The notes under the pieces were generated by a model. That model had not been told where the DNA came from, did not search any database, and saw only the letters and a program-made list of their open reading frames with translations. A stretch of DNA of 57,332 bases from Candidatus Methanomethylophilaceae archaeon (GTDB taxonomy: Archaea; Thermoplasmatota; Thermoplasmata; Methanomassiliicoccales; Methanomethylophilaceae): assembly GCA_017507885.1 (NCBI GenBank), contig JAFVZY010000004.1, positions 1-57,332 on the forward strand, in the 5' to 3' direction. A program made the translations under genes and the position numbers. Numbering within the stretch: position 1 is the stretch's first letter; every line of letters begins with the position of its first letter. Of this stretch, positions 41,058 through 42,572 are shown piece by piece.

Positions 41058-42572
41058 TCATACAGCCGGTCTGAACACGAGTTTGTGATTCTCGTTGTTC
41101 TCACCGTACACTTCGCTTTCCGATAGGACGTATTTCATGTCGGTTATCTTCTCGAGAAGGCGTGAGAAATATCTGACGTCGAATTCGGAGGCAACGCGGG
41201 CAACCTTCCTGTTGAGTTTCTTTGGTGATACGAAGACCAGGGTGAATGGTAGGAACGATGTCACATGCAACGTTTTGAAATCGCTCTCCTGTAAGGAGGA
41301 TAGGGCATCCTTGATTGAGGTGTATTTCTTGTGTTCCATTGTGATGTCCGCGAAAATCGTGGAGATGTTGTACAGTAGAGGACCCACATCGATACCAAGG
41401 GAGTCCCCCCTCAGGATGATGTAGGACATCATATGAAGGAAGAACGAATCCGAATCAGAAATCATGAGGTTGAGTTCCATGTCCTCATCAACGGTGTTCT
41501 CCAGGTTGACACCCTTCCAGGTGAAGGAATGCGTGGTTGCGAGGGAATACATGCTCGTCTTGCCCTTTCCCACACTCGTGAGGATTCCTTCGTTGACCAT
41601 GCGGCGCACGTTTAAAAGTACCGTGGCTTTGGGCATCCCGGTGATTTTCGATATCGATAAGGCATCCCGGGGGTATATCGATATGGCATCGATGATGTCC
41701 ATCCAGGGCTTTTCCTTTACGATTTTGATGTCGCCGTCGATGAGATAGATCCACTGGTCATCCTCGTTCCTGGTGATTCTCATGTCCTTCAGGATGTTGT
41801 TCCCGTATGATCCCGGGCACTTCTTGATCGACGGGGACAGGTTCGCCACATACGTCCCTTCGCCGGTCTCCTCCGTGGAGGAGATGCAATACGGGTCACC
41901 CGTGCACAGGGTTGCGAAGCTGGACAGGACGGTCAGTACGAATTGAACGTATATCGATGCGGAGAGATGTGGCATGGGTGTGGTGAGTTCCACACCGATC
42001 TTCAGCGGTATGTGATCCAACAGGGCGATTCTCGCCAAATCCACATCCGTCAGGAAGCGGATGCATATGTCGATGGCCTCTTCCGCATCCGTTTCCTTGT
42101 ATTTTTGGTCATACAATCTGTCGGCGATTCCGATGGCCATGCTGTCCAGGATGGGGGATATCGATACTCCGAAGGATGCCATGAGGGAGATGGCGTTCGT
42201 GAGAAGTCTCTTGTAGCTGCCGTCCCCTCTGACGAATAGGGACTCCATGAAATACGGTTTAAGAGACTCCTCCACGGTTTCCGTGGACTCGAGAACCCTG
42301 AATGCGTTGCTGTACCATTTCCTCTCCCCGTCGTCGTCCCGGGAGTCGATGGCACCGGTCTCGGAGAGTCTTTTCAACGACGAGAATGCCGTCGATTTCT
42401 TCAATCCGGTTTCGCCCAGGATGGTTGACAGTGTGTCTGCACCCCTCATGACGGACATGAATACGGACGTATCCGTGGAGCCCCTGACAGGAATCAAATT
42501 TCCACCCACCAATATCAATTGAAACGTGTTTCCATTAGCAACAATCGGGGGGGGGGGGTTTTGTCCATCCAT
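41058..42572 (-). CDS. Two-headed winged-helix transcriptional regulator with a poly-C start region
   Basis: 504 residues from the ATG 42572 (GGAAGGTGTG is the ribosome site). Two winged-helix domains of ArsR/TrmB type are visible: about 35-95 (ADTLSTILGETGLKKSTAFSSLKRLSE) and about 290-350 (DALSISKITGMPKATVLLNVRRMVNEG). Each is followed by about 150 residues of helical sensor or dimerisation region, as if the gene arose by internal duplication. Codons 5-9 contain 12 consecutive C bases (PPPP). It is divergent from an exported B-repeat protein and may control the local surface genes (inference). Confidence 0.75.
   Translation of the reverse strand: MDGQNPPPPIVANGNTFQLILVGGNLIPVRGSTDTSVFMSVMRGADTLSTILGETGLKKSTAFSSLKRLSETGAIDSRDDDGERKWYSNAFRVLESTETVEESLKPYFMESLFVRGDGSYKRLLTNAISLMASFGVSISPILDSMAIGIADRLYDQKYKETDAEEAIDICIRFLTDVDLARIALLDHIPLKIGVELTTPMPHLSASIYVQFVLTVLSSFATLCTGDPYCISSTEETGEGTYVANLSPSIKKCPGSYGNNILKDMRITRNEDDQWIYLIDGDIKIVKEKPWMDIIDAISIYPRDALSISKITGMPKATVLLNVRRMVNEGILTSVGKGKTSMYSLATTHSFTWKGVNLENTVDEDMELNLMISDSDSFFLHMMSYIILRGDSLGIDVGPLLYNISTIFADITMEHKKYTSIKDALSSLQESDFKTLHVTSFLPFTLVFVSPKKLNRKVARVASEFDVRYFSRLLEKITDMKYVLSESEVYGENNENHKLVFRPAV
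42547..42558. repeat. Twelve-base G/C homopolymer at the start of the regulator gene
   Basis: G12 on the plus strand, C12 in the coding strand, beginning at the third base of codon 5. Tracts of this length are prone to slipped-strand change, and a gain or loss of one base would stop translation early. The gap 42573-42802 otherwise holds only promoter-like A+T-rich sequence (AAAAATAAATATC, minus strand, about 42608-42620). Confidence 0.9.

Follow-up and report, generated by a model that had tools for sequence, protein, structure and literature searches.

In host-associated bacteria, homopolymer tracts change length by slipped-strand mispairing, which switches genes on and off. A passage of one source (PMC4235727) describes Campylobacter jejuni as an organism without mismatch repair that carries 12-27 poly-G/C genes per genome. 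Another passage of the same source, citing Dixon 2007, reports several initiation codons before the repeat in lic2A-type genes of Haemophilus influenzae. For the Bifidobacterium breve pilus, an account based on deep sequencing and mice describes an intragenic G-tract whose replication slippage sets the expression of the surface structure (PMC9187656). This type of switch is well known from bacteria and hardly described in archaea. The relevant part of a 2025 review calls multi-locus phase-variable genomes apparently restricted to pathogens and looks to future archaeal phylogeny data (PMC11868660). A survey of 99 genomes with 18 archaea states, in the part relevant here, that poly-C/G tracts are generally under-represented (PMC2831843), and a phase-variation system making protein variants in the haloarchaeal virus phiCh1 is named in a reference list. 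A search of the open-licence PMC literature returned no report of phase variation in Methanomassiliicoccales, of archaeal tract switching, or of relevant homopolymer work on Methanomethylophilaceae; earlier print elsewhere is possible.

We analyzed a stretch of 57,332 nucleotides (the window) from the genome of a Candidatus Methanomethylophilaceae archaeon (G000; assembly in 135 contigs). The gene of a 504-aa regulator lies on its minus strand at 41058-42572. As a sequence-only reading of the window had noticed, a C12 homopolymer is present just after the start codon of this gene, at 42547-42558 (G12 on the plus strand). The tract begins with the third base of codon 5, ends with the second base of codon 9 (ATG GAT GGA CAA AAC CCC CCC CCC CCG ATT) and encodes four prolines in the present frame. 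Start codons in two frames precede it on the minus strand. According to the computed frame states, single-unit changes shift the regulator body out of frame with its start: the body is in frame with ATG 1 (42570-42572) at 9, 12 or 15 C and with ATG 2 (42566-42568) at 10 or 13 C, while at 11 or 14 C both ATGs are out of frame with it and run into a stop after 10-19 codons. Upstream of ATG 1, within 42577-42618 on the minus strand, we noticed by eye AAATAAATA (42608-42616) and the purine-rich GGAAGGTG, which we take to be a putative TATA-like element and a putative Shine-Dalgarno-like element, respectively.

The arrangement resembles the poly-G/poly-C translational phase variation of Campylobacter and Neisseria, in which unit changes of a long C/G tract in the 5' portion of the coding frame turn the gene ON or OFF. 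It differs in that the organism is an archaeon whose promoters look TATA-type by eye, the gene predicted to switch encodes a two-headed regulator, and switching is here a prediction from sequence. As in lic2A, starts in different frames upstream of the tract allow more than one tract length to be ON, but lic2A-type repeats are tetranucleotides and initiation was measured there, whereas the present case is a C12 tract with predicted initiation. With the B. breve pilus it shares a gut commensal, an intragenic tract and slippage; however, that tract lies in the pilus gene itself and was tested experimentally, whereas this one lies in a regulator gene and its role is predicted.

We predict that the C12 tract is a translational contingency (phase-variation) locus, with a probability of about 0.76. 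Replication slippage would add or remove single C's, and, lacking MutS1-type mismatch repair, the cells would presumably retain these length changes. At 12 C (also 9 or 15), translation from ATG 1 would read into the 504-aa regulator; at 13 (also 10), ATG 2, four bases on, would take over; and at 11 or 14 neither would serve. Cells would frequently gain or lose the regulator in this way, and the ON state might come at two levels.

Measured against the genome's own run-length decay, chance falls far short of explaining the C12 tract. Within 177,835 bases of G000, comprising the window and 12 stretches chosen for their tracts, C/G runs numbered 378 (5 nt), 56 (6), 2 (7), 0 (8), 1 (9), 4 (10), 5 (11) and 3 (12), and A/T runs in the same bases end at 8. 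Pattern counts over the whole assembly gave 49 C8 windows and 36 C9 windows, which together mean 13 runs of 9 or more (9-12) and none of exactly 8. In dinucleotide shuffles restricted to the window the tract was not significant (4 C9 windows seen versus 1.99 expected, with 4 reached in 21 of 100 shuffles); this null overpredicts C/G runs relative to the decay in the genome itself. The 31 genomes of genus g1 contain 181 runs of 10 or more versus 34 of exactly 8. The other 71 genomes of the family contain 157 runs of exactly 8 and 359 of 10 or more, and 227 of these 359 are found in four genomes of genus g9 (G034, 93; G035, 62; G037, 35; G044, 37). No C/G run of 10 or more was found in 26 of the 102 family genomes. 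Among the good-quality genomes of a 389-genome phylum sample that includes the family, 102 of 204 have such a run, versus 38 of 45 in the family.

A search of the 102 family genomes revealed close orthologs of the regulator in two further genomes only. One is G071, a Methanomethylophilaceae MAG recovered from the rectum of water deer (JAGBGN010000028.1; 43% over aa 3-504), and the other is G090, a Thermoplasmata MAG (SUSX01000035.1; 27%, cut by a contig end). The next best family match has an E value of 1e-17, and a wider contig scan recovered the same two orthologs. No viral or phage copies of the region were found, and a pattern scan of viral contigs gave 0 matches. Both orthologs carry a tract at the same 5' site, ATG-21 nt-C12 in G071 and ATG-15 nt-G11 in G090. 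Because the base differs, the conserved thing cannot be the amino acids; the G11 may be miscounted because the coverage of the G090 contig is 1.5. The sequence-only reading had named orthologs with prolines encoded by mixed CCN codons as a refutation, and the comparison found none, only the unbroken C12 and the G11. G071 has no other C/G run of at least 10 nt, and G090 has two others. Under uniform placement, the chance of a tract falling in the 120-base 5' window is about 7.5e-5 for G071 and 3e-4 for G090, figures that are optimistic, perhaps tenfold, because this window was set after examples had been seen and tracts are enriched at gene starts.

The three copies, which belong to three different species, differ in their computed frame states. 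The window gene is ON, and G071 and G090 are out of frame with their ATG and hence OFF, with predicted ON lengths of 10 or 13 in G071 and 9 or 12 in G090. G090 also has a GTG or ATG directly behind the tract from which a nearly complete protein could be translated, and the tract would then have no bearing on this copy. All three copies have an open regulator body with no internal stops. The loci of the weaker family matches (L005-L031) contain no C/G run of 8 nt or longer, which indicates that the tract is confined to the close ortholog group.

To describe tracts across the family, we used a sample of 102 distinct tracts of at least 9 nt with duplicates merged, comprising all 58 of eight genomes, 30 of the 93 of G034 and those of G000. 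Fifty-eight of the 102 lie within -150 to +120 of the first start of an ORF of at least 150 aa, versus 1059 of 6060 random positions in the same loci (17.5%; binomial 4e-19). This figure too is optimistic, perhaps tenfold, since the interval was set after examples had been seen, and tracts of paralogous genes are not independent. Without G034, 41 of 71 tracts are at gene starts. G000 alone shows little excess (4 of 13 versus 16%), and there the automatic rule misplaces the start of the window gene at an upstream GTG.

Length change was found between the close relatives G054 and G055. The same gene, of no assigned family, has 13 G in G054 and 11 G in G055 with flanks 94.8% and 97.5% identical, and its frame is broken in G054 only (G055 ON, G054 OFF). 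Two tracts are common to both genomes; the second, 20 G in G054 beside ten N's, was excluded as evidence of length change. One tract has lengths of 11, 10 and 11 in three more distant species, and the signal peptidase leader tracts of G000 have 12, 11 and 10. What looked like inverted repeats at the paired tracts of G053 and G054 was rejected as an artefact of comparing a stretch with its own reverse complement. Separately, G054 has a C12 and a G10 in inverted orientation, 15 bases apart, before a 218-codon ORF (L162:1502-1538), where a hairpin could form. MutS1 was absent in all 102 family genomes and detected in 11 of 14 controls, in a search that covered MutS1 alone among mismatch-repair proteins. 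This lack parallels that of mismatch repair in C. jejuni.

Two other explanations accept the tract as real and deny that its DNA length acts as a switch, and we regard each as unlikely. RNA polymerases and ribosomes can also slip on homopolymers, and transcriptional slippage or ribosomal frameshifting at C12 could produce mixed frames from a fixed DNA sequence, giving a constant regulator fraction whatever the DNA length; orthologs out of frame at the DNA level would then be tolerable. However, recoding would be useless for the many similar family tracts that are located in leaders and promoters rather than within reading frames, and the G054/G055 pair shows that DNA tract length differs between close relatives at another locus. 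Alternatively, runs might simply pile up without MutS1 around a decaying regulator, making the tract neutral or a relic and the OFF frames of G071 and G090 those of ordinary pseudogenes. The family-wide absence of MutS1, the two out-of-frame copies among three and the patchy occurrence of the regulator, whose close ortholog group is present in 3 of 102 genomes, would suit such decay. Against it, the bodies have stayed open in all three copies, a homopolymer has been retained at a single site as poly-C or poly-G, tracts are over-represented at gene starts, and there are no runs of 8, a length that neutral growth would have to cross.

Two further explanations are very improbable. A functional poly-proline N terminus would make the C run mere coding sequence for the four prolines that the present frame does specify, but all of these prolines come from one unbroken C run and the ATG frame of G071 does not reach the body; the G090 ortholog with poly-G in place leads us to reject this function, if the G090 count is right. 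An error of sequencing or assembly, such as poly-G read tails, may seem attractive where tracts lie at contig ends (C53 and C90 in G000, and cases in G037) or where one abuts a run of N, as in G054. The window tract, however, lies in the interior of a 57-kb contig, flanked by a coherent conserved gene and by the ATG of that gene, and tracts also occur in the single-contig genomes G050, G053 and G055. The contingency reading, in turn, rests on the bimodal run lengths, the tract kept in orthologs with another base, the ON and OFF frames, the change of length and frame between G054 and G055, the absence of MutS1 and the enrichment at gene starts. The first five of these support the phase switch that the sequence-only reading had proposed; its idea that the cells vary surface protein expression in this way stays more tentative, and the reading as a whole is partly supported.

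The regulator has two homologous halves (BLASTP E 5e-5, 22% over 203 aa), each consisting of a winged helix and a sensor-like domain. Pfam placed winged-helix regions at aa 35-80 (TrmB-like) and aa 291-333 (HTH_IclR), which agrees with the earlier description of a two-headed HTH protein. In an AlphaFold2 model built from three sequences (mean pLDDT only 67.6), aa 117-261 resembled the phenol-sensor domains of PoxR, DmpR and MopR (Z 10-11, rmsd 3.0-3.6 over 133-141 residues). The region aa 276-354 of the model resembled TFE-alpha/ArsR-type winged helices (Z about 11, rmsd 1.5-1.9 over 65-69 residues). The V4R-like candidates MJ1460 and Bet3 appeared in Foldseek with E values above 0.01, and the RNA polymerase III subunit RPC62, in the top Foldseek rows (E 6e-5), was set aside with TM-scores of 0.16. 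The NCBIfam model of the methanogen regulator MsvR matched aa 39-195 weakly (E 8e-12, 45.3 bits), far under the equivalog cut-off of 220 bits, and we did not assign the protein to MsvR. MsvR and the regulator have in common the weak model match of the N-terminal half and a helix-turn-helix with a possible V4R-like fold in the predicted model, whereas here the whole unit is tandemly duplicated and the score is below the cut-off. We infer that the protein is a tandem one-component regulator with a predicted sensor role.

The neighbouring genes bear on what the regulator might control. Both neighbours named in the sequence-only reading were found. The divergent exported B-repeat protein is encoded at 42758-44344 on the plus strand (List_Bact/B-repeat; Flg_new, E 6e-11) and has a hydrophobic N-terminal stretch by eye; its likelier start is an ATG near 42803 with AAGGAGG before it (also by eye). 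The giant adhesin gene corresponds to a surface protein of 2524 aa with BspA LRR_5 and List_Bact/B-repeats at 46035-53609 on the plus strand. Between them, at 44482-45735 on the plus strand, lies a reverse transcriptase of the UG26 group (PADLOC RT_UG26 profile, E 8e-142, profile positions 1-396 of 398), whose ORF begins at a TTG and whose likelier start is the ATG of MSLLD further in. A diversity-generating retroelement was considered and rejected, as the reverse transcriptase is UG26 and direct repeats of at least 40 nt in 40700-57332 occur only at 49500-53360, inside the giant surface gene. In G071, a giant MBG/LRR surface protein is directly divergent from the regulator, an AAA-ATPase-like gene lies downstream, and the UG26 homolog is on another contig. 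The G090 neighbourhood contains the regulator, the UG26 reverse transcriptase and a giant MBG surface protein. A giant surface gene near the regulator in all three genomes is thus its constant partner. The two-headed regulator, with a sensor-like domain beside each DNA-binding head, might switch some nearby surface genes. Given the contingency reading, the chance that it controls the adjacent ones is about one half.

Besides the regulator tract, G000 has 12 further long C/G tracts. Two are associated with signal peptides recognized by eye: a G11 after that of a BspA-LRR protein (contig C125, in frame) and a G10 in a similar one at a contig end (C53). On C101 a G12 precedes a giant BspA gene by about 330 nt, and a C11 lies between a BspA-LRR gene and a transposase (C43). 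Tracts of C10-12 are found in the leaders of signal peptidase I paralogs (C14 and C54, with a similar one on C90 cut by the contig end). A G11 between the AAA-ATPase-like and PDDEXK_9 parts of an apparent single gene is out of frame (C48, L067:6954-6964), and a DHH-family gene that uses GTG as start codon has an in-frame G11 at its beginning (C103). The remaining tracts are a G10 in a DUF4143 ATPase and a G9 in an ORF without family (both C71), and a C10 before an aminotransferase (C109). Surface-protein variation by tracts in this genome is better supported by those directly on BspA-type genes (C125, C101) than by the regulator tract. A GC-rich repeat at C14, C54 and C90 that had been considered as an RNA proved to be the leader of the signal peptidase I paralogs (both of the two scanned exceed the TIGR02228 cut-off).

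Recurring tract modules were also found in other genomes. In G034, a promoter-like module of G11-12 followed by AAATTATAATTTCCCC precedes BspA-LRR surface genes, and LRR_5 was found in all nine module genes scanned. In G051, G053 and G077, exported proteins share a leader with G10-13, a C/U-rich stretch and then a Shine-Dalgarno able to pair with the stretch (e.g., L166, L164, L184, L188 and L189). This leader is alike in idea to that of H. pylori tlpB, for which a variable G-repeat is described (PMC8295292). Folding of seven leaders with 6-15 G gave mixed results: the probability of an unpaired Shine-Dalgarno went up towards 13-15 G in L166, L164, L174, L184 and L188 and hardly rose in L189 and L171, the scored motif being only part of the Shine-Dalgarno for L188, L189, L184 and L171.

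A wider and more tentative proposal, to which we give somewhat less than an even chance, is that gut Methanomethylophilaceae possess a "phasome", tens of selected poly-G/C contingency tracts in a lineage without MutS1. These might act by reading frame, as proposed for the regulator, by promoter-side tracts and by poly-G leaders pairing with an anti-Shine-Dalgarno strand, so that length tunes translation, on BspA-type surface proteins, exported proteins, signal peptidases and regulators, and the two-headed regulator might be the master switch of a surface-gene block. If this is true, slipped-strand bet-hedging is not a bacterial speciality, since a gut archaeal lineage would have dozens of tracts on surface genes, and host-associated archaea would have a means of varying their surface in the face of phages or hosts. 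The question of archaeal phase variation is directly testable, as tract lengths can be counted in existing gut metagenome reads.

Several minor observations were made at these loci. A search of eight tract loci with Rfam revealed nothing at the tracts; the sole matches were group II intron parts (RF00029 and RF02012) around a 505-aa ORF on contig C43 of G000 (L066:7407-9494, minus strand). Adjoining the regulator, at 39536-40711 on the minus strand of the window, is a gene for a 391-aa protein that appears exported by eye and matches C39 peptidases only very weakly (E 0.06). Ahead of the UG26 reverse transcriptase, at 44387-44522 on the plus strand, is a structured RNA-like leader whose conservation extends to G071 (L078:610-746) and to G090 (L033:2352-2490, minus strand), with 40 consensus pairs, 6 of them with compensatory changes, among three sequences only. 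This leader is possibly the non-coding RNA partner of the little-known UG26 reverse transcriptase group.
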